64,000 nt of DNA from contig NZ_CP024808.1 in assembly GCF_002787055.1 (NCBI RefSeq), forward strand, positions 770,328-834,327, given 5' to 3'. A program made the translations under genes and the position numbers. Within the stretch, counting starts at the first letter, position 1; each line of letters begins with the position of its first letter. This stretch comes from Candidatus Nitrosotenuis aquarius (GTDB taxonomy: Archaea > Thermoproteota > Nitrososphaeria > Nitrososphaerales > Nitrosopumilaceae). Positions 1,424 to 26,580 of the stretch are shown here, piece by piece. Under the pieces are notes generated by a model, which was not told the DNA's origin, did no database searches, and worked only from the letters and a program-made list of their open reading frames with translations.

Positions 1424-1873
1424 TTAATGTAGGTTCTTGAACTGATCTTTTGTCAGCTTCAGGATTACTTTTTCACCGACACCCCAAATGTCCGACTTGG
1501 TTACGATTCTTGTGTGGATCAGACCATCAGATACTTCGATAGAGTGCAGTTCATTTGTCTGCGGGTCCTTTACCAGTCGCTTTATCTTGCCTAGTTTGTG
1601 GCCGTCAATGTCGACTACCTGGACGTTGGTCCTGACTGGCGACCTTGAGAGCAAAAGTGTCTCTTCTGTGAAATGGTCAATGTATTCTGCCGGCAAATAA
1701 TAGTCCTTGTGAAACCCTTGGTGTATTGTGACTCCAGATACCGCTAGGGTCTTGGAGTTGATGTGGATGTGCTTTACCTCGCCGTACTTGATGCCCTCTC
1801 GGTCAACTACGCGCTTGCCTGTGAATGTGTCTGCGGTGCAGTTGTTTTGTGGTATTTCTTCTAGTGCTGCCAT
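1424..1873 (-). CDS. PRC-barrel domain protein
   Basis: 149 residues from the ATG at 1873. Two PRC-barrel-like halves can be seen: GKRVVDREGIKYGEVKHI near the start, and VQVVDIDGHKLGKIKRLV near residue 85. PRC-barrels occur in RimM, in photosynthetic reaction centre H subunits and in many small archaeal proteins, where they mediate protein or RNA contacts. A longer frame reaches 1924, but a TATA-like GGATAAAGG lies about 25 bases upstream of 1873, so I prefer the shorter leaderless start. Role unknown. Confidence 0.8.
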   Translation of the reverse strand: MAALEEIPQNNCTADTFTGKRVVDREGIKYGEVKHIHINSKTLAVSGVTIHQGFHKDYYLPAEYIDHFTEETLLLSRSPVRTNVQVVDIDGHKLGKIKRLVKDPQTNELHSIEVSDGLIHTRIVTKSDIWGVGEKVILKLTKDQFKNLH

Positions 1874-1961
1874 GCGGTACGGTTTTGAAAATCCTTTATC
1901 CAAACCAAAAATCACAATTTTCAATCAATCGGATTAAATTACTTGACTTTGGGCACGCCTC

Positions 1962-2273
1962 ATGCAAAAAAGCGCTTTTCGAGCCACGCTAACCACAAAA
2001 GGTAGAAAGACAGGCGAGCCACATTCCGTTCAGCTACGCGCTGTATGGTATGATAATATGGTGTATTTTTCTCGCAGAAATGAAAATGCGGACTGGCTAA
2101 AAAATGCCCTTGCCGACAATTCAGTATCAGTAGAGTTTGATGGAAAAACACATCACGGAATGGCATCGCTGGTAACGGATGAATCCCTTGCCAAGAAAAT
2201 CTCAGAGCTGAAATACCCAGGAGAGGAGAGAGCCCAAGAAGTGCGCACAATATTGCAGATCAAACTAAGCTGA
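1962..2273 (+). CDS. Deazaflavin (F420)-dependent nitroreductase-family protein
   Basis: 103 residues. The segment ATLTTKGRKTGEPHSVQL followed by an aromatic-rich strand (WYDNMVYFSRR) and WLKNALADNSVSVEF is the hallmark of the small split-barrel DUF385/Ddn family, which uses F420H2 or in some members other cofactors. CofE, the F420 gamma-glutamyl ligase, is encoded at 45621 in this same window, so the cofactor should be available. It is shorter than typical Ddn (about 140-150) but retains the core. Substrate unknown. Confidence 0.78.
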   Translation: MQKSAFRATLTTKGRKTGEPHSVQLRAVWYDNMVYFSRRNENADWLKNALADNSVSVEFDGKTHHGMASLVTDESLAKKISELKYPGEERAQEVRTILQIKLS

Positions 2274-2309
2274 ATCAGACTTTTATATTTACAAAACAAG
2301 ATCAAACCA

Positions 2310-3086
2310 GTGAAGTACGTTTTAGTCATCTCTATAGTGGCAGTGTGTTTGGTTTTTGCAAATAATGATGTCTTTGCCCAAAAATCAAAAATCTGCGGAG
2401 ACACCCTATGCTCAAAGGTGCAGGCATGTCCAATGGACCATGTATTGGACAGAATCACGCTAAAGTGCTATCCAGGCTCTGACGGCTGGAAGATAACAGG
2501 ATATTACTTGCCACTAGAAAAAGAATTCTTCAAGGACAAATTTCAAACAATACTGGTACAGGGAAAAAAGAAGAACGGCTCTTTTGACTATATTGAGGGA
2601 AATTCCACGTATTACTACAAGCAGTTCAGATCAGGATTCCTATCTGATGTAATTGTACAGGGTTCTGGCAAGACAACAGAGTCAAAAATACTGCAAACAT
2701 GGGCGGATGATTTCATCTATCCAAACGGGGAAAAGACCAGATTCTATCATTTTGGAAAATGCGCATACACTGCGTCTGGCGTTTGCCTTCCACTATCGGA
2801 ATCCTCGCTCTCAGAACCACTGGTCCTAGTTGCAGTGACAAAGGGAAAAACAGACATGCAAAAAGGAGTAATATCTCATGGAACCCTGCTTAGGATTCCA
2901 GACATACCGTCGCCATGGAACGCCAGGACCTACTGGGCAACAGACATTGGAGAATGGAGCGACAAGCACATTGATGTTTTTACAGGATATGGTGCAAAGG
3001 CAAAGGCAGACGCATACCGAATAACCAAGCTTCCGCCACAGGAATCAAGCAAAGTCATGGCAGTCGGATTCAAAGACACTAAATGA
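2310..3086 (+). CDS. Exported protein of unknown function
   Basis: 258 residues from a GTG start. The N-terminus KYVLVISIVAVCLVFA followed by NNDVFAQK is a good signal peptide with cleavage after VFA. A Cys-containing segment follows at once (CGDTLCSKVQACPM ... LKCYPG), which could form two disulfides outside the cell. The rest is rich in aromatic and Gly/Lys residues, as in beta-rich exported proteins. A TATA-like TTTTATATTTAC lies about 25 bases upstream of the GTG. I recognise no family. It overlaps the convergent gene at 3079 by eight bases. Confidence 0.75.
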   Translation: MKYVLVISIVAVCLVFANNDVFAQKSKICGDTLCSKVQACPMDHVLDRITLKCYPGSDGWKITGYYLPLEKEFFKDKFQTILVQGKKKNGSFDYIEGNSTYYYKQFRSGFLSDVIVQGSGKTTESKILQTWADDFIYPNGEKTRFYHFGKCAYTASGVCLPLSESSLSEPLVLVAVTKGKTDMQKGVISHGTLLRIPDIPSPWNARTYWATDIGEWSDKHIDVFTGYGAKAKADAYRITKLPPQESSKVMAVGFKDTK

Positions 3087-3723
3087 TATGAATAATAGTA
3101 GAGACTCCGCGCTTTTCTGTCTCGTAGCCGTTTTCCATTTCTGCAACCGTTATAGTAAATGATATCAAATCCCGTTGCTGTGCCGCAGTCGCATCTAGAT
3201 ACAGGTGCACATCCATCAGATCATATTCCCCCTGAGGAATTCTTGTCTCATCTATGAAGACCTTGGCAGTCGACTCTACTCGGAACTGCTGGCCCTTGTA
3301 GTGCTCTATGATCTTGGTCTTTCTTCCGTTTCTGCCTGCCGCCTTGACATTGATGTCTATTATTCCTGGCTTTGAGCTGGTGTATCCTGACTGTTTGTTT
3401 ACAAATACGCCAAGCTGGAATGGCTGGCCTGCGGTGGACTCTGCCATTTTTTGTATTCCGTCATTCATTGCGACATCGACTCCCTTGATTGTCTGGGAGA
3501 CCTTGGCAATCCACTCGTTGCTTTTTTGTATTACTGCAGCTATTCGCTCCCGCCTTTTTTTGTCCTCTTCTGGCTCTAGCTGGTATCTATCAACCCAGGC
3601 CAAATAGTCCTTGGAAATGTCCTCGATGAATTGGATGCATGTTACCTTGTAATCATCAATAGAATTTGCCCGCTCTGATGCATCATCTGTTCGCATTCCG
3701 TCATAATCAGCAGGCATCGCCAT
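3079..3723 (-). CDS. Conserved hypothetical protein with helical N-terminal half
   Basis: 214 residues from the ATG at 3723 (MAMPADYDGM). The N-terminal half (about 20-105) is charged and helical and could be a short coiled coil (EPEEDKKRRERIAAVIQKSNE region); the C-terminal half is beta-rich (GRKTKIIEHYKGQQFRVES, VHLYLDATAAQQRD). No signal peptide or membrane segment. A frame extension to 3777 exists, but its first 18 residues overlap the TATA-like TTATATTTTTTC. Divergent from the gene at 3781. Function not recognised. Confidence 0.65.
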   Translation of the reverse strand: MAMPADYDGMRTDDASERANSIDDYKVTCIQFIEDISKDYLAWVDRYQLEPEEDKKRRERIAAVIQKSNEWIAKVSQTIKGVDVAMNDGIQKMAESTAGQPFQLGVFVNKQSGYTSSKPGIIDINVKAAGRNGRKTKIIEHYKGQQFRVESTAKVFIDETRIPQGEYDLMDVHLYLDATAAQQRDLISFTITVAEMENGYETEKRGVSTIIHII

Positions 3724-4290: not shown

Positions 4291-4925
4291 GAATAATCCA
4301 GTGCGCCGTCTATTGTATAGTATTGCGCTTTTGCAGGCAGTGGAATATTGTTTGCAATCCAGAGCTTGTTTTCAATGTCGCTTATTTTGTAAGACACCAC
4401 AAATGTTTTGAGTGTGCCAAACTCAAACTCGGAGTCCACATATTCTGTTACCTTTAGCTTGGGAGTGAATTTGCCGACATAGGTTGTGCCCCATTCTGCG
4501 CCAACCACCAGATACTTTGAGCCGGTCAGTGTGTCCCTAACTGAAAAGACGGATCTGTCAAGTGCCAGAATGTACGGTTTTATCTCGTCACTTGGTCCGA
4601 TAAAGACAAAGGCCTCGCCAATTTGCAGCTCCTGCTCTATGTGCTGGCCTGTCTTTTTGTCATCTATTGTGAGATGGATTTTTTCAGTGTCACCTGTCTT
4701 TTCCAAAAACGCAATCTTTGCCAAAAACTCCTTGCCCTGATAATTTACCAAATATTGCAGGACTGGCTGCTCTTCTACTCCTTTTCCCACATGCCACTGG
4801 CTTGCAAATCTAGGAATGATGTTCTGCTCGGACCCCGGAATACCAGTCAGGAAAGGAAATGAAAGTCCAATTGCTGCAGCTCCCAGCATTATTCCTAATG
4901 GTATGAAGAGTGCTTTGCGAACCAA
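4263..4925 (-). CDS. Membrane-anchored exported protein, paralogue of the upstream secreted protein
   Basis: 220 residues with one N-terminal hydrophobic helix (about 5-27, LFIPLGIMLGAAAIGLSFPF) and an extracellular beta-rich domain. It shares features with the preceding gene at 4939: a WHVGKGV motif versus WYVGEGL, and near the end KLWIANNIPLPAKA versus VWIVDNFPFPVKA, each followed by a Tyr/Glu-rich strand ending ELVALE or ELLSFQ. So the pair are tandem paralogues of one extracellular domain. It lies 13 bases after that gene on the same strand, probably one operon. Function unknown; a surface or S-layer-associated role is inference. Confidence 0.72.
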   Translation of the reverse strand: MVRKALFIPLGIMLGAAAIGLSFPFLTGIPGSEQNIIPRFASQWHVGKGVEEQPVLQYLVNYQGKEFLAKIAFLEKTGDTEKIHLTIDDKKTGQHIEQELQIGEAFVFIGPSDEIKPYILALDRSVFSVRDTLTGSKYLVVGAEWGTTYVGKFTPKLKVTEYVDSEFEFGTLKTFVVSYKISDIENKLWIANNIPLPAKAQYYTIDGALDYSYELVALEP

Positions 4926-4938
4926 TTGTTCGGATTTT

Positions 4939-6420
4939 CTAGGACTTTAATTTGATGATTCCGTTTGTTATTAGATACTGCAGGCCGTTGACAAAGTCCT
5001 TGTCGGTTGTCTGTCCCTCTGACCAGAACTTGGCCGCATCTTTTACCCACGACGGTATGACGTCGCTTTTTGCGCCAGTAGATGTGCTGGTTGGAATCTT
5101 GATGATTTTTTGGTTAATCAAATATTGTATGCCAGAGACAAAGTCCTTGTCTGTGATGCTGCCGTCTGACCAGAACTTGGCGTTTGTCTTGATCCAAGAA
5201 GGAATTACTATTTCTCCTGGCTTTGGTGTTGTTGGCGGTGGAGTGGTCGTTCCGGTGCCTGCCTGAACATCTACATCAAATGTGATAAATCCTGCCTTTA
5301 GTGCATCTGGCGCAACCTCAGGACCCGTTCCCTTGACTAGTATTGCATAGGTAGTCTTGCCAGACTCTTTGATGTCAATTGTGGTTCGAACCTGGCCGCC
5401 GGTTGTAAAGAGGGCATTGCGCTTTGCCTCGCCTGCAATTGATCTTACCACTTCTGTTCCAGATGCGCCTGCTTTTACCACCAAAATATCATAGTGGACC
5501 TCGTTTTCAAATTCCTCCTGGTTTACCTTGCGCTTAAAATCAATAATCATGTCCATCGGGCATCCTTGCTTGGGGCTCTTTGGGGAATATTTTACGCTGA
5601 TAATCATGGTGTTTGTGTTTGTGTTCTTGGTGACATATGCAAAGTCCTCAGTGATTACAGGACAGTTGCCTCCTGTAGTTACGGCGCCAGTGTCTACAAT
5701 TTTCTCAAATGGGTTCTTGGTGATATCTCGCTGGAAACTCAACAATTCAAATCTGTACTCTTGTGGCGGAACGCCTTCTGCCACATGTGCATATGTGTCA
5801 GCCTTTACTGGGAATGGGAAATTGTCCACAATCCAGACATTGTTTACTTTGCCGCCCGTCTTCCATGTTATTCTGACTGTGTCAAATACACCTGCCGGGA
5901 CCGGAATCTTTTCTTCGGCTGCAGGAATGATTTGCTCGCCTCCAATGTTTCCAATTTTGCCCCATGACGGCATGGAGAACTTCTTTGGTCCTTTGCCTGT
6001 CAAGTCTCCAGTGTCTGCTGTTGCATATGCAGAAAGCCAAGATAACGATGACTTGAAAGCTGCCGCGTGTGGGATTAGGTTCTTGGTGCTTCCAATTGGC
6101 TCAGCTGCTATTTTTCCCACATTGATGGTACCTTTGTGGATTTTGCCGCCATCATACACTACAACTTGGAGCTTCCACTGGTCTTCGCTGCCGACTTGTT
6201 GGCTGCCCTCTACCCAAAAGTCAATCTTGAATGGGGTGCAGTCCTTGTAGTAAACATGGCACAGGTTGTAGCTGAACTGATCTCCTTTTTTGAGGCCTTC
6301 GCCAACATACCAAGAGCCTTCCTTGTTTACTCCTCCCGCCTGGAGCTGGGCGCTGGCGCCATGTGATAATCCGGATGCTAAAAGTGATATGGCAAGTAAT
6401 GCAACTAAAAACGTCTTCAA
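4939..6420 (-). CDS. Secreted protein with thaumarchaeal extracellular domain and two C-terminal IPSW repeats
   Basis: 493 residues. Signal peptide at 1-24 (FLVALLAISLLASGLSHGASA). Residues about 35-235 hold the domain shared with the downstream gene (WYVGEGLKKGDQFSYNL; VWIVDNFPFPVKA). A second beta-rich region follows (about 250-390), then a Thr/Pro linker (TGTTTPPPTTPKP) and two copies of a roughly 37-residue repeat: IPSWIKTNAKFWSDG and IPSWVKDAAKFWSEG, each followed by T-DKDFV-G-QYLI. I know this repeat from exported proteins of ammonia-oxidising archaea, where it often ends peptidases and cupredoxins. It probably anchors or oligomerises the protein at the cell surface. Confidence 0.8.
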   Translation of the reverse strand: MKTFLVALLAISLLASGLSHGASAQLQAGGVNKEGSWYVGEGLKKGDQFSYNLCHVYYKDCTPFKIDFWVEGSQQVGSEDQWKLQVVVYDGGKIHKGTINVGKIAAEPIGSTKNLIPHAAAFKSSLSWLSAYATADTGDLTGKGPKKFSMPSWGKIGNIGGEQIIPAAEEKIPVPAGVFDTVRITWKTGGKVNNVWIVDNFPFPVKADTYAHVAEGVPPQEYRFELLSFQRDITKNPFEKIVDTGAVTTGGNCPVITEDFAYVTKNTNTNTMIISVKYSPKSPKQGCPMDMIIDFKRKVNQEEFENEVHYDILVVKAGASGTEVVRSIAGEAKRNALFTTGGQVRTTIDIKESGKTTYAILVKGTGPEVAPDALKAGFITFDVDVQAGTGTTTPPPTTPKPGEIVIPSWIKTNAKFWSDGSITDKDFVSGIQYLINQKIIKIPTSTSTGAKSDVIPSWVKDAAKFWSEGQTTDKDFVNGLQYLITNGIIKLKS

Positions 6421-19911: not shown

Positions 19912-20583
19912 ATGAAGGCGCACCTTGGCATTTTTGGCATGATGGTCCTTGTTATGGGCATTTTTGCCTCGCCATTATTGGCTAGCGCGCAGACCCACCA
20001 GCAAGTGGTATCAACCGACATAGGCACACTCAAGGTTGGCGTTTCCACAGAGCCTGCATCACCAAAACCAGGCGAAACATCAAAGATGAAAATCGACTTT
20101 CTAAATCCACAAAGCGGTAACATACAAGAGCACATTGACTATACTGTTCTAGTTACAAATGGTGGCAATGCTGTCTTTGGGCCAATTCCATTGACACATA
20201 CATCTCTTGGCTCTGCCACAATTCCAGTCCAGTTCAAAGACGGTGAGAATAAAGTCGTAATTGAAGTACAGGGAATTTTGTTTAGACCAATTCCAACAGA
20301 AAAGGCCTCATTTTCAATCACACTGGGCGACAAATCAGCTGCTACAAAAGAATCACCGAAGGTAGCTGAAAAGTCTAAGCAAAAACAAGCAGACAAACCA
20401 AAACCAACAGAAACAAAAGACAAAAAATCAGACAAAAAAGATCTAAAGAAGGATTCCAAGAAAAAGACCGCCGATAAAGAGGAATTAAAGAAAAAAGAAA
20501 CCAAGAAAGACCCTAAAAAAGACAAGAAAAAGGATACAGAAAAGAAAGCCGTGAAGAAACCAGTTAAGAAAGCAGAAATCTAG
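19912..20583 (+). CDS. Exported protein with long lysine-rich C-terminal tail
   Basis: 223 residues. Signal peptide at 1-27 (LGIFGMMVLVMGIFASPLLASA). Residues about 35-145 form a beta-sandwich-like domain (LKVGVSTEPASPKPGETSKMKI, DYTVLVTNGGNAVFG). From about 150 to the end the sequence is nearly all K, D, E, T, P and A (KKDSKKKTADKEELKKK), a highly basic low-complexity tail of some 75 residues. Such a tail outside the cell may bind acidic polymers, the S-layer or glycan. Family not recognised. It overlaps the convergent gene at 20580 by four bases. Confidence 0.75.
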   Translation: MKAHLGIFGMMVLVMGIFASPLLASAQTHQQVVSTDIGTLKVGVSTEPASPKPGETSKMKIDFLNPQSGNIQEHIDYTVLVTNGGNAVFGPIPLTHTSLGSATIPVQFKDGENKVVIEVQGILFRPIPTEKASFSITLGDKSAATKESPKVAEKSKQKQADKPKPTETKDKKSDKKDLKKDSKKKTADKEELKKKETKKDPKKDKKKDTEKKAVKKPVKKAEI

Positions 20584-21011
20584 CCTTTTGCCTGCAAGCC
20601 CTTTTTGATTATGTCTAGGGCGTTTGCTATTTTTTCAGGCCTTGGAAGTTGGATCATAAACACATTGTCTTTTCCTACTTGTGAGTGAGGAGACGACAGT
20701 GCAAGCATCGACGTAGTTGCCAGCGACTCAAAAAAATCAAGCGACTCGTTTGCATATAGCAGAATTTTTTCGTCTATTCCGCCTTCAGAAAAGGTGAGTG
20801 CCATTTCCACAAAGACATTGCCTAGTCCGTTTTGCAAAATGTTGAGGTTTGTGTCAACAGACAGGGGCTTGCCAGCGACTTTGGCCATTATTTCATCAAA
20901 TCTTTTTTCTGCTAGAATCACGCACGGTACTTTTGTTCCATTATAGTTAAACGAGGTAATTCCAACGTGAACCTTGTCCATTAGTTCTTTCATTTCATCG
21001 TCCATGATCAT
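20580..21011 (-). CDS. Hypothetical protein coupled to the antiporter
   Basis: 143 residues, soluble alpha/beta, starting in the overlap ATGA with the antiporter stop (21008-21011); a second ATG lies six bases on. GITSFNYNGTKVPCVILAEKRFDEI and later EKILLYANESLDFFESLATTSML. No signal peptide. Translational coupling with the Na/H antiporter suggests an accessory or regulatory role, but the family is not known to me. Confidence 0.68.
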   Translation of the reverse strand: MIMDDEMKELMDKVHVGITSFNYNGTKVPCVILAEKRFDEIMAKVAGKPLSVDTNLNILQNGLGNVFVEMALTFSEGGIDEKILLYANESLDFFESLATTSMLALSSPHSQVGKDNVFMIQLPRPEKIANALDIIKKGLQAKG

Positions 21012-22418: not shown

Positions 22419-22703
22419 TTATTTTTTGACAATCACGTCTTGTCTAACAGTCACTATTCTTTTGCACATCACTTGTGATTTCTCTTTAAGAATATCCACA
22501 GTATCTTTAGAAGTTATTGGAAGCAAGTAGGGATCGTTTGTCTGATTGGTTGTGATACCAGTGCAAACAAAAAACCCAGTATACTGGTGGAACAACGATT
22601 TTGAGATGACCAATAGTGGTCGCCTCTTGTTTTCTGATTGATCTTGGTATTGAGGATCTGCTAAAACTATATCCTTGGGATGAATTTCAAATTTTGAAAC
22701 CAA
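22419..22703 (-). CDS. MazF/PemK-like toxin
   Basis: 94 residues. The family pattern is visible: an N-terminal strand with DIVLADPQYQDQSENKRRPLLVIS (D-I-V ... K-x-R-P-x-L-V-I-S), a middle FVCTGITTNQTNDPYLLPI, and the end SQVMCKRIVTVRQD (S-x-V-x-x-x-x-I-x-T). MazF-fold proteins cut mRNA; many archaeal members are uncharacterised. It follows a 38-residue peptide at 22724 that may be its antitoxin. The stretch 22295-22418 after it holds no gene. Confidence 0.82.
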   Translation of the reverse strand: MVSKFEIHPKDIVLADPQYQDQSENKRRPLLVISKSLFHQYTGFFVCTGITTNQTNDPYLLPITSKDTVDILKEKSQVMCKRIVTVRQDVIVKK

Positions 22704-22723
22704 GCGCTAGATTTTCACAAAGC

Positions 22724-22840
22724 CTATTTCATAACTGTTTTTGCCAGAGAATCTAGATCATTTTCAGCTTGTTCAATTGGCTCATTTTCTGAGATTTCGA
22801 GAGAAACTATGCGTTTCTGAACTTTTGTAGTTGTGGCCAT
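22724..22840 (-). CDS. 38-aa peptide upstream of MazF-like toxin (candidate antitoxin)
   Basis: ATG 22840 to TAG 22724: a basic N-terminus (MATTTKVQKRIVSLEIS) followed by an acidic helix (ENEPIEQAENDLDSLAKTVMK). A beta strand plus acidic toxin-binding helix is the general form of MazE-like antitoxins, though it is shorter than known ones. It lies 20 bases before the MazF-like gene on the same strand. A TATA-like TTTTATATC is about 40 bases upstream. Assignment as antitoxin rests on position and shape only. Confidence 0.5.
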   Translation of the reverse strand: MATTTKVQKRIVSLEISENEPIEQAENDLDSLAKTVMK

Positions 22841-22913: not shown

Positions 22914-24518
22914 TTAGATTACCGAGATTGTTTTTGCCAGGATTTTGACTTTTTCTGATTCCGGCTCATCAAGCTTGCGCTCTGTGTACTTGTTGCTAAA
23001 GTAGAGCAAGTCAATTACCTTGGATTTGTCCACATTTACTATGGTAGCTAGGTTTGACTGTGGGATGCTGGTGTTTGTTATGATGATTAGCTTGTCCACA
23101 AATGCCGATGATTTTACCACATTGGAGATTATCTCAAAGTTCTTTGCATGATTGTCGTTCATGACTACGGCGATTCCTATTTTTGTGCCAAATGGATCGG
23201 AATACACCACGTCAAAGGAAGGGTTTTGCTTTGCCGATTTTGAGACGTTTCCTATTTCATGCGCATAGTTTACCAGGTTTGCGATTGCTTGCTTTACTTG
23301 GTCCTGGGTGGCTCCTGCAGTTCTTTTTATTTTGATAAACTCAGAGATTGGCACCTCCATAATGCTTCCTTTGATTTTTAGTCCCGGATAGGTGTGTTTG
23401 ATGGTTTCATCAATTACTGCCTCTGTTATTTCAGATGCGCCTAGCTCCGAGCCTTGCTCTATTGCATGGTTCAGTATGTTTATGATAGAGCGGACGTTTC
23501 GGAATTCCGGGAATTCATCGCATAACACTCGAATCTTTGCTGCCAAGTCGTGCTGTTCTTTTTTGTTAAATCGCTCTGTTTTGTCAGCTTCCTTGATGTA
23601 TTCAATTGCAATCTCGATTAGCTCGTCTACTGAGTTTGCGCCTGCAAGATCAATTTTGTAGTTTGCCTTTTCCAGCCTGTCAAAGACTGATGGGTTTGCC
23701 CTTTGTATGTCCAGGTATAATGATGGCGTTGTAATTAGTAACAAGACAGATGCCGGAATGTGAGCGTTTATGAGTGATTTTACAAATTCCAGTGAGCTTT
23801 CTTGCGCATCAAGCTCATCCAGCTCAAAAAGCGTTACTTTGCCCAATAGATTATGGAAGAACTTGCATACTGCTGCCAGTCGTCCGTGAAGATCGTCCAG
23901 ATTTGTCACCTTGTCAAACGAGTTGGAAATTATATTTTGTATTACGGCCGATTCATGCTGTGAATAGTGAGCGCCCAGATAGATGCGCAGAATCTCTTGC
24001 GAGATGGTGTTCTTGTCATAAATGATGTCTTCAGCCTTTTGTTTTATGGTGATTCCCTTTAGTCTGTCCAGAAATCCATAGCCAAGTGCCTTTTTTGCCA
24101 GTGCGTCTCCCTTTTGTGCTCGCTCACAGATCTGCATCAGGAACTTTGCTCGCAGCTCTGAGAACATTTCACGACTAAATCCGCGTATTATGGCAGAATA
24201 GATGCTCTCGTTGGTCTTTGGCGATATTGTGGACAAGTCAACATATGCAGTGACAATGTCCTGTCTTGTCTTTAGCGTCTTGATGTGCAATGCAAGATGA
24301 GTCTTGCCAGAGCCCACATCCTGCACTACCGTGATTAGCCTAAAGTCATTTTCATCAGAATTTCTTCGCGATGTTTGCTTGTACAGATCAGAGATGCATT
24401 CTACTATCGAGTGTTTTGCCTCTTGGTGTTTTGTTCCACCCAAAATCTTGGCATCCTGCTCAGTAGGTGTTGGGCTGCTAGGATATGGGTTGGATTTTAG
24501 GCCGTATGGGTATGTCAT
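22914..24518 (-). CDS. AAA+ ATPase with degenerate nuclease-like C-terminal domain
   Basis: 534 residues. An ORC/Cdc6-like layout: GGTKHQEAKHSIVECISDL before Walker A DVGSGKTH (67-74), Walker B TLFELDELDAQ (229-239, Asp234-Glu235), a sensor-like strand VLLLITTPS (about 258). A helical lid follows (about 290-375). Residues 435-510 read FDVVYSDPFGTKIGIAVVMN..., the strand order of a PD-(D/E)xK nuclease fold, but where E-x-K is expected there is A-V-V, so it should not cut. It may bind DNA ends or a partner. Third gene of an operon; its ATG overlaps the stop of the wHTH gene (ATGA). No named family recognised. Confidence 0.78.
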   Translation of the reverse strand: MTYPYGLKSNPYPSSPTPTEQDAKILGGTKHQEAKHSIVECISDLYKQTSRRNSDENDFRLITVVQDVGSGKTHLALHIKTLKTRQDIVTAYVDLSTISPKTNESIYSAIIRGFSREMFSELRAKFLMQICERAQKGDALAKKALGYGFLDRLKGITIKQKAEDIIYDKNTISQEILRIYLGAHYSQHESAVIQNIISNSFDKVTNLDDLHGRLAAVCKFFHNLLGKVTLFELDELDAQESSLEFVKSLINAHIPASVLLLITTPSLYLDIQRANPSVFDRLEKANYKIDLAGANSVDELIEIAIEYIKEADKTERFNKKEQHDLAAKIRVLCDEFPEFRNVRSIINILNHAIEQGSELGASEITEAVIDETIKHTYPGLKIKGSIMEVPISEFIKIKRTAGATQDQVKQAIANLVNYAHEIGNVSKSAKQNPSFDVVYSDPFGTKIGIAVVMNDNHAKNFEIISNVVKSSAFVDKLIIITNTSIPQSNLATIVNVDKSKVIDLLYFSNKYTERKLDEPESEKVKILAKTISVI

Positions 24519-25039
24519 AGTCGTCTAATGTATCCATGTAGCATTCCGCGCACATGGATTCCCTCCACACCACCTGTCGACATCTCATATTTTGTCGGGT
24601 TTTGTTCTATTATTGCAGATACCTCGGAATAGAATTTTTCCTGTGTAATGTCCAAGATTTGGCAAACTTTGGCCCGCACATCTGCCAGTGGAACCCATCC
24701 CAAGGATGATGAGATTTCTGATATGCGTTTATCAAAATGAATCTTAAAGTCGGCAGTATTTTCTGACTTTGCCGGGATTTGCGAGATTTTTGCCTCTAAA
24801 TTGTTGACTAGTCTTGCTAGAATCTTGAATTTTGGGTCGTTTTGTGACACATGGGACAAATAATTATCCTTACTCCACACATAGTGCGCAACGCCCTTGT
24901 TGTCCACTATTACTTTATCCTCTTTTGCAAGCTCGCTTATTGTATTTTCACAGTCTGCGCCAAAAATCTTCTTTAGTTCCGCCTTTTTTATTCCGCAGAT
25001 TCCTGATGATTCAACTTTCTCAAGAATCTGGGAATTCAT
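24515..25039 (-). CDS. Winged-helix protein of the AAA+/coiled-coil operon
   Basis: 174 residues. Residues about 5-58 form a winged helix (ILEKVESSGICGIKKAELKKIF, ENTISELAKEDKVIVDNKGVAHYVW: helix, recognition helix, wing). A second alpha/beta region follows (about 95-174), with WVPLADVRAKVCQILDITQEKFYSEVSAII, possibly another winged helix. Such tandem winged helices occur in kleisin-associated proteins (ScpB, MukE) and in DNA-binding adaptors. It is four-base coupled to the ATPase. Function not known. Confidence 0.75.
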   Translation of the reverse strand: MNSQILEKVESSGICGIKKAELKKIFGADCENTISELAKEDKVIVDNKGVAHYVWSKDNYLSHVSQNDPKFKILARLVNNLEAKISQIPAKSENTADFKIHFDKRISEISSSLGWVPLADVRAKVCQILDITQEKFYSEVSAIIEQNPTKYEMSTGGVEGIHVRGMLHGYIRRL

Positions 25040-25157
25040 GTGCTAGAATCCCTAAAATTTTTTTTAATGGGAAAGGTCGACTTGTATTACTATTTTGTGA
25101 ATAATAATTACCTAGGCTGCACCAAGAATTATTAGGCATTATGTCACAACTTCGCTT

Positions 25158-25218
25158 GCAGGGTGATGATTAGGTCATCTGAATTTTATGTAGAATGAGA
25201 CCTGGGGTATCTGACTGC
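25158..25218 (+). ncRNA. Candidate C/D box sRNA
   Basis: In order: terminal stem GCAG (25158-25161), C box GTGATGA (25163-25169), nine-base guide TTAGGTCAT, D' box CTGA (25179-25182), spacer, C' box like GAATGAGA (25193-25200), ten-base guide CCTGGGGTAT, D box CTGA (25211-25214) and closing stem CTGC (25215-25218). The spacing and terminal stem agree with archaeal 2'-O-methylation guides of about 60 bases. The C' box is degenerate and I could not assign rRNA or tRNA targets. It lies between two operon genes, on the opposite strand. Confidence 0.45.
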
Positions 25219-25224
25219 TCTAAA

Positions 25225-26580
25225 TCAGCTTAAGCCAAGCTCTTTTCGTATTTCGTCCACGCCGCGTATCCCAAAAATGTCGCGCACTTGATTGATGCGA
25301 ATGTTTTCCTTGACTAGCTCTTTGCCAAGCTTGTTTATCAGAACATTAAACAAATCAGAGAATCTTATTTCCCACTTGTCAGCACAGTCAAGCATTTTTG
25401 ATATTGCCCACTGGCGGACCTCTTGCGGCAGCGAGATTTTATCCTGAGACTCGATTGCCACCTTGTCAAATAGATTGACAATGTCTGATGTTTGCTCTGC
25501 CATTTTCTCAATGTCTTTTAGTTCGCCATATTTTGATTCTGACAAAATTCGAATGTTTGACTGGAACTCTGATAGTTTCAGTAATGCAATTACCTCCTTT
25601 GATGCAGTAGATGAGGACTTGGTTGTGGCGCTTTTGATGTGCTGTACTTCTTGGACTAGATGGTCTGCCTTTTTGTGGAACTCGGATGATGCGGCATCTG
25701 CTCTCTTTAGCAGCTCCGATATTGAAGAGATTTTTTGGTCAATTGTGTTTGTCTTGCCAAGGATGTGGTCCTTAAACGATGCAAGGTCAGACTGGACTGA
25801 TTTTACTCCCTCGCCGACAAACGCAGTCGAGTCCGCCCTTTTGACTAGCGAGCCAATCTCTGATTCGATTTTGGCAATTTCCCCGCTAAGATGAGTGATG
25901 GATTCAGTCTTTGCCATGTTTGTCACAAGCTCGTTTTGCAGTGATACCAGGCTTGCCTTTAGTTGAGGAATCTCGGATTCTAGGCTGGATTTTGACGAGT
26001 TTTCAAACAATGCGTGTAGTTTTTCTTTGATTGCATCTAGTTCTGATTCAATGTTGGATGTCTTGTCTGCCTTGGACGATATATTGACTAGATCGTCTTT
26101 TATGGTATCTATTCTCTGGGCAATCTTGATTATCATGTGGGTGTTGTTTTGAATCGAGTTTTGGCTGTCCGATACTGCCTTCATTATTTCCTCTGGTGCA
26201 GGCGCATTCTTTTGGGTCTGGACTAGCTTGTTTACCTGTTCTTGAAGCTTGTTTGCATGCTCACCAACACTTGTTATCATACTTGCCTGTGCCCGCACCT
26301 GATTTAGTCCAGCATAGAGCCGCTGGTTGTCCTCTTCTATGAGGTTTAGCTGCTTTGATTGCTTTTGGATCTGCTCAAGTGTATCAATTAGGGTATCGAT
26401 CATCCCCTTCATCGACAGGAGAACCTTTTGGTTGTCGGAGAAGACCTTTGCCATTGATTTGATTTCTTTGGATAATGATTTAGTAGAATCAGAGACTGCC
26501 GCCACTTTTTTTGCCAGATTAGCAGTATCTCTTTTTGTCAGTGATTTTTCTGCAGTTTTTGGAGTTTTCCTCGTAGACAC
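25225..26580 (-). CDS. Long coiled-coil protein, first gene of the AAA+/wHTH operon
   Basis: 451 residues from GTG 26580. After a basic tail (MSTRKTPKTAEKSLTKRD), residues about 20-345 are almost continuous amphipathic helix with heptad patterns (MKGMIDTLIDTLEQIQKQSKQ; LVSLQNELVTNMAKTESI), interrupted by short Ser/Ala hinges. The last 100 residues are a globular helical domain (VRQWAISKMLDCADKWEIRFSD ... GIRGVDEIRKELGLS). There is no ATPase head, so it is not itself SMC. It could be a scaffold for the wHTH and ATPase proteins encoded downstream. No membrane segment; not a known family to me. Confidence 0.75.
   Translation of the reverse strand: MSTRKTPKTAEKSLTKRDTANLAKKVAAVSDSTKSLSKEIKSMAKVFSDNQKVLLSMKGMIDTLIDTLEQIQKQSKQLNLIEEDNQRLYAGLNQVRAQASMITSVGEHANKLQEQVNKLVQTQKNAPAPEEIMKAVSDSQNSIQNNTHMIIKIAQRIDTIKDDLVNISSKADKTSNIESELDAIKEKLHALFENSSKSSLESEIPQLKASLVSLQNELVTNMAKTESITHLSGEIAKIESEIGSLVKRADSTAFVGEGVKSVQSDLASFKDHILGKTNTIDQKISSISELLKRADAASSEFHKKADHLVQEVQHIKSATTKSSSTASKEVIALLKLSEFQSNIRILSESKYGELKDIEKMAEQTSDIVNLFDKVAIESQDKISLPQEVRQWAISKMLDCADKWEIRFSDLFNVLINKLGKELVKENIRINQVRDIFGIRGVDEIRKELGLS

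Follow-up and report, generated by a model that had tools for sequence, protein, structure and literature searches.

A coupled winged-helix and ATPase gene pair

We analysed a 64,000-nucleotide stretch of the Candidatus Nitrosotenuis aquarius genome (assembly GCF_002787055.1, contig NZ_CP024808.1, positions 770,328-834,327, forward strand; hereafter the window), which carries a winged-helix gene and an AAA+ ATPase gene side by side on the minus strand. An earlier note on this DNA had described three minus-strand genes encoding, in order, a coiled coil, a winged helix and an ATPase. An open reading frame (ORF) check found all three at the coordinates given there: the coiled-coil gene at 25225..26580 (451 aa, GTG start), the winged-helix gene at 24515..25039 (174 aa) and the ATPase gene at 22914..24518 (534 aa). 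The ATGA coupling reported for the last two was also seen in the sequence, the stop of the winged-helix gene overlapping the start of the ATPase gene at 24515..24518 (minus strand). The boundary between the two genes was between -4 and +5 nt at all 65 paired loci compared, and 46 of the 65 overlapped by 1 or 4 nt. Distances for the winged helix and the ATPase co-varied across the same loci (Mantel r 0.96, 0/2000 permutations); such co-divergence is a sign of shared history and not by itself of interaction.

For all three genes, presence and absence were counted in one set of 150 genomes from the class; these counts and the Fisher tests made on them ignore relatedness, and show co-occurrence or its lack, not independent events. 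The module was present as one copy per genome. The ATPase was found in 46 genomes and the winged helix in 43, all 43 of which also had the ATPase (Fisher p 2e-34). The three genomes with the ATPase only were Nitrosopumilus-like and had it at another place; no remnant of the winged-helix gene was recognised upstream of the lone Nitrosopumilus ATPase, where an apparent VQGLLHG match was no better than chance. The lack of the pair in one further genome (G140) was due to a contig end (L176), not to loss. For the coiled coil the count was 84 genomes, all in a single family (f1), apart from one match that was spurious. It occurred together with the ATPase in 25 genomes and without it in 59, and the ATPase occurred without the coiled coil in 21, so that no association was found between them (Fisher p = 0.86). 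It was absent from all Nitrososphaeraceae and Nitrosocaldaceae having the pair and was retained where the pair was gone. Where it adjoins the pair, in Nitrosotenuis and Nitrosotalea, it shares the strand of the pair in the former and lies on the opposite strand in the latter.

We conclude with high confidence that the unit consists of two translationally coupled genes, winged helix and ATPase, not three, and that the coiled-coil gene and a MazF-like gene described below are neighbours only. The earlier note had suggested that all three proteins could form one complex, and had accepted that independent occurrence of their homologues would speak against it. Such independence was found for the coiled coil, and the three-subunit complex was rejected on this phyletic pattern and on the strand flips.

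A gap of 185 bp separates the end of the coiled-coil gene from the winged-helix start. Because a conserved element and a TATA-like box lie within this gap, the coiled-coil gene is probably outside the winged-helix/ATPase transcription unit, the pair having its own promoter. The element, TTCACAAAATAGTAA (25087..25101, minus strand; consensus TTCACMAAWTNGTHA, an imperfect dyad), is a candidate operator 62-48 nt before the winged-helix ATG. The box, TTAAAAAAAATTTT (25054..25067, minus strand), is conserved in Nitrosotenuis relatives and has the equivalent TTAAATAAAATTTT in Nitrosotalea. Across Nitrosotenuis and Nitrosotalea the 15-bp element keeps a constant place about 60 nt before the winged-helix start. 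It was found exactly or with 1-2 mismatches at almost all Nitrosopumilaceae loci, including before the lone Nitrosopumilus ATPase. TTCACAAAATAGTAA was the only exact match in the window and in the whole genome to which the window belongs, and two-mismatch matches in the window were at chance level. When whole genomes were searched, four of five had one exact match and the fifth had two, each genome having one at the pair locus. Seven genomes lacking the module gave no match to a related pattern, in a search that serves as a rough control, having missed a genome that has the module (G068) and given a chance match in another (G025). The element was not found in Nitrososphaeraceae or Nitrosocaldaceae, where other blocks upstream are conserved. 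Autoregulation of the winged-helix protein through this element would be the simplest reading.

Domains of the two proteins and intact relatives of the nuclease-like domain

The AlphaFold2 (AF2) model of the ATPase had a mean predicted local distance difference test score (pLDDT) of 84.5. A Foldseek search of the PDB with this model returned Aeropyrum ORC2 (E 2e-5), ORC1, Sulfolobus Cdc6 and BrxC (9zll), followed at lower rank by VchTnsC and MuB, in agreement with the ORC-like character proposed in the earlier note. Because the template modelling scores (TM-scores) of these matches were modest (0.2-0.4, attributed to the extra domain and to domain motions), the model places the ATPase in the ORC/Cdc6-TnsC-BrxC clade without matching any one protein closely. 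The Walker A motif DVGSGKTH was confirmed at residues 67-74 (24297..24320, minus strand), and Walker B lies at residues ~231-236. K72, T73, D234, E235, the arginine finger R281 and the sensor-2 residue R343 were invariant in an alignment of 51 ammonia-oxidiser ATPases and distant homologues. A second, unpaired ATPase copy in a Nitrososphaera-type genome (L206:3495-5213) has a decayed Walker B (DD) and has lost the arginine finger, and was taken as a degenerate paralogue.

The earlier note had recognised none of the three proteins as a named family, and no Pfam, NCBIfam or PADLOC family claimed any of them. Pfam matches of the ATPase to AAA_22 (8e-5) and BrxC_BrxD (0.012) were both below cut-off; some other members gave weak nSTAND3 and AAA_22 matches. 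Searches against the sequences of solved structures with the ATPase or its profile, the winged-helix profile and the coiled coil returned nothing meaningful.

The C-terminus of the ATPase (residues ~425-512; 22983..23246, minus strand) carries a PD-(D/E)xK-like domain, recognised by alignment with intact relatives and by column counts. D436 and D441 are invariant, and the catalytic D/E and K are replaced by A450 and V452 in the window. Among the ammonia-oxidiser sequences position 450 is A, S, T, M or V and position 452 is V, I, A or T, so that the D/E and K are lacking in 51 of 51. The D...(D/E)xK residues were found in two relatives from other Thermoproteota classes, each preceded by a winged-helix gene and each with an intact D-x12-DVK motif. 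One, from another class (L138), has its winged-helix gene at 906-1538 and its ATPase gene at 1541-3190, with the motif SVDVYWEDKAGRVIVLDVK placing DVK where the window has A450/V452. The other, from a third class (L152), has its ATPase gene at 4333-5709 after a gene for a 201-aa winged-helix-type protein, with the motif IVDVFVTTRDNENVALDVK. The L138 protein aligned over its whole length with the ammonia-oxidiser profile (hhalign E 1.2e-50), an alignment that supports common descent of the dead domain with an intact PD-(D/E)xK domain. The earlier note had described this C-terminus as PD-(D/E)xK-like without the E-x-K pair, and the full-length alignment of intact homologues bears it out; the domain is, on these comparisons, a genuine nuclease-like domain predicted to be catalytically dead in ammonia oxidisers. 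The nuclease may have decayed more than once, because in the third class, too, the main copies (L139-L142) are degenerate, with a different sequence.

The intact relative was present in only 1 of the 81 genomes searched of the L138 class. The terminal sequence of L138 recurs unchanged at the start of contig L154, which holds the end of the nuclease-intact ATPase gene (L154:1-115), and the next genes include RAMP and Cmr5 of a type III CRISPR system; this setting beside a Cmr operon was met in a single Thermoproteota family. In a sister genome a C-terminal relic (L151:5466-5718), 83% identical, lies ~3 kb from the same Cmr genes. The neighbourhood of L152 consisted, by eye, of ordinary cellular genes. 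The nuclease-competent form looks accessory and defence-linked and the nuclease-dead form housekeeping, an impression drawn from two genomes. In one Thermoproteota family the gene for a 172-aa protein overlaps that for a 275-aa P-loop ATPase that lacks a nuclease domain (L155:4407-5727), an arrangement that may be the pair in minimal form.

The AF2 model of the 174-aa winged-helix protein (mean pLDDT 83.5, predicted TM-score 0.45) has a winged helix at residues ~1-56, a helical linker and a second winged helix at ~95-163. A C-terminal motif, YE.S.GG.EG..RG..HG..R, is invariant in the alignment of 53 sequences. Foldseek matches were weak and generic (TFIIIC, ScpB and MarR types; best E 5e-3). 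In Nitrosocaldaceae the linker is a coiled coil, giving total lengths of 419 aa (L126) and 626 aa (L208); in the latter (L208:2252-4132) the two winged helices are separated by an internally repetitive coiled coil of ~500 aa, as if forming a molecular ruler. A BLAST match between this long coiled coil and the coiled-coil neighbour (E 1e-4) was judged compositional.

Genomic setting and neighbouring genes

The pair lies in a gene block common to Nitrosopumilaceae and Nitrososphaeraceae. In Nitrosotenuis, Nitrosotalea and Nitrososphaera the order is c1 (a ferredoxin-type gene), c0 (a glycosyltransferase), the coiled coil where present, the winged helix, the ATPase and c2; c0 also precedes the pair in one Nitrosocaldaceae genome (L208). 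Nitrosopumilus has the same block without the pair, which is cleanly missing from most marine members, with c2 and the coiled coil retained. The simplest reading is that the pair was present in the ancestor of these lineages and was lost in the marine clade. No copy of the module was found in the IMG/VR, phage or plasmid collections, and an accessory or mobile island was rejected on this result together with the conserved block. No defence genes and no HerA/FtsK gene were seen when the neighbours were read and clustered in 20 loci, a comparison run without a HerA-specific model. The module is old, inherited mostly vertically and kept at one chromosomal place.

The conserved gene c2 (20580..21011, minus strand, 143 aa in the window; 143-149 aa overall) is the gene usually found downstream of the ATPase in lineages ranging from Nitrosotenuis to Nitrososphaera (for example L207:5068-5517), and it matched no Pfam family. 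It is a possible third partner, yet it is also kept where the pair was lost. In the window c2 overlaps an antiporter gene by ATGA.

In this genome a MazF/PemK-like toxin gene (22419-22840 with its antitoxin-like ORF; Pfam PemK_toxin 7.8e-12) is inserted between the ATPase and antiporter genes, with the antitoxin-like ORF of 38 aa (22724-22840) just upstream of it. The earlier note had cited this gene as giving the locus an accessory look. The gene is real, but the accessory look did not hold, given the conserved block and the restriction of the MazF-like gene, among the loci compared, to the window. Since none of the relatives compared showed the gene here, it is uninformative about the pair.

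The coiled-coil neighbour is a near-universal single-copy Nitrosopumilaceae gene with a conserved C-terminal domain (~330-451). No ATPase head was found in its 451 aa, and against the SMC, Rad50 and JetC models it showed low-level coiled-coil similarity, far below the cut-offs.

Interpretation and comparison with known systems

Our preferred interpretation is a coupled two-gene module forming a DNA-loaded AAA+ machine with a dead nuclease, domesticated from a restriction-like form; we regard it, as a whole, as having about an even chance of being right. The winged-helix protein would bind DNA, including its own promoter element, and so control its own expression. Its invariant C-terminal tail or its second winged helix would recruit the ATPase, which would assemble on DNA in an ATP-dependent manner, consistent with the retention of R281 and R343. 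The ancestral assembled form may have cut DNA, much as restriction systems do. Ammonia oxidisers would have lost the nuclease and kept the complex as a DNA-binding or remodelling machine with a non-essential chromosomal job. We hold the DNA-loaded mechanism with moderate confidence. Several points weigh against this interpretation. The element could be read by another factor, and it was not found in two of the families that have the pair. The ATPase persists elsewhere in the genome without the winged helix in the ATPase-only Nitrosopumilus. DNA binding by the winged-helix protein is suggested by its fold, for which the best Foldseek match reached only E 5e-3, and the defence context of the intact form consists of one intact copy and one relic.

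A domesticated function in genome maintenance is favoured over active defence because of the vertical inheritance and the lost nuclease. A more specific version, in which a restriction-type machine was domesticated before the ammonia-oxidiser radiation and the pair, as a complex loaded at a single site on each chromosome, now either maintains the genome or marks the chromosome, is improbable. Active defence against invaders, with the pair as a sensor or DNA-loading unit and the nuclease or effector encoded elsewhere as in HerA/FtsK capture systems, is unlikely. The domain list is the same as in the systems described in PMC10853773 (Orc/Cdc6 ATPase, inactive restriction endonuclease [REase] and winged helix-turn-helix [wHTH]), distant homologues gave weak PADLOC matches to mad8 and BrxD, and the intact form adjoins a Cmr operon. 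These have to be set against a single copy per genome inherited vertically in a conserved housekeeping block, the failure to find defence neighbours or mobile copies, the lack of a HerA/FtsK gene at the locus, the terminal position of the inactive REase and the lack of a PADLOC match for the window ATPase. A literature search on this family in ammonia oxidisers, or on mad8 of MADS, found nothing on point.

A replication or partition factor, in which the ORC-like ATPase is loaded by the winged helix at a single site identical with the promoter element, would fit the ORC fold, the near-uniqueness of the element in each genome and the absence of the related pattern from the seven module-less genomes. 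It seems quite improbable, since bona fide Orc1/Cdc6 genes were present elsewhere in every genome tested, the locus and the best cdc6 gene are ~0.2-0.4 of a genome length apart, Nitrosopumilus can do without the module, and no iteron array or further sites were seen. We give a similarly low weight to a regulatory module, in which a STAND-like, signal-controlled ATPase and the winged helix regulate their own and adjacent genes. The weak nSTAND3 and AAA_22 matches and the conserved element before the TATA-like box point that way, but the invariance of the arginine finger and of sensor 2 speaks for an oligomeric AAA+ machine, and no regulon is visible because the element occurs almost nowhere else in the genome. 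Least probable by our estimate, and very improbable, is a three-subunit chromosome-organisation complex of the SMC/kleisin, MukBEF or Wadjet type with the coiled coil as scaffold. Adjacency in Nitrosotenuis and Nitrosotalea, the long coiled coils within the Nitrosocaldaceae winged-helix proteins and the weak structural match to ScpB would suit it, but it is opposed by the lack of association over the 150 genomes, the absence of the coiled coil from Nitrososphaeraceae and Nitrosocaldaceae that have the pair, its retention where the pair is gone, its varying strand and the sub-threshold SMC and JetC similarity.

Ammonia oxidisers rank with the most abundant archaea on Earth. On the domesticated-machine interpretation, the pair would be a defined, ancient two-gene DNA machine of testable ancestry, the intact form lying by a CRISPR operon and the dead form fixed in a housekeeping block, and it would offer a direct test of the wider notion that cellular machines arise from defence ATPases. 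The two-gene unit also corrects a three-gene reading that would point experiments to the wrong partner.

We compared the module with known systems. Assignment to Wadjet, MukBEF or SMC/kleisin, whose parts list the earlier note had invoked, found no support: the coiled coil has no ABC ATPase head, and its co-occurrence with the ATPase is not obligate. The ATPase resembles archaeal Orc1/Cdc6 in its AAA+ fold, best Foldseek matches, Walker A and B motifs, arginine finger and sensor 2, but it has no TIGR02928 match and no fused C-terminal winged helix, ending instead in the REase-like domain; with genuine cdc6 genes elsewhere, membership was rejected. It resembles BrxC/BrxD of BREX (PF10923) as an ORC-clade ATPase with wHTH parts (fused in BrxC, a separate gene here) and in the BrxC Foldseek match. 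However, PF10923 scored 15.0 bits on the window ATPase, below the gathering cut-off of 22.2, PglZ was found in 0 of 10 genomes tested and a methyltransferase was absent at the locus, so that BREX membership was rejected as well. Both families had been named in the earlier note as assignments of the ATPase that would speak against its proposal. A genome of the third class has a separate BREX-like locus (L156:2414-5683), in which a BrxC/BrxD-family ATPase (PF10923, 4.5e-48) adjoins another ATPase-like gene. TnsC/TniB and MuB share the AAA+ clade, with Foldseek matches to VchTnsC and MuB, but their sequences are distant and no transposase or transposon ends were noticed at the conserved locus.

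The Orc/Cdc6 NTPases with a C-terminal REase form an effector class designated CR-type (PMC10853773). The same study described mobile neighbourhoods with an Orc/Cdc6 ATPase, inactive REase, wHTH, HerA/FtsK and active REase, and placed the inactive REase of HerA/FtsK capture systems between the AAA+ core and a C-terminal wHTH (PMC10853773). Our module has the ORC-clade ATPase, the dead or live REase domain and the wHTH in one operon. It differs from the capture systems in that the REase-like domain is terminal and not inserted before a wHTH, in that no HerA/FtsK or second active REase was seen among the conserved neighbours (the 20 loci above, again without a HerA-specific model), and in being vertical, syntenic and single-copy. 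Although it lacks some of the tested defining features of each of these systems, the module shares its parts, and probably its way of working, with the Orc/Cdc6-REase systems.

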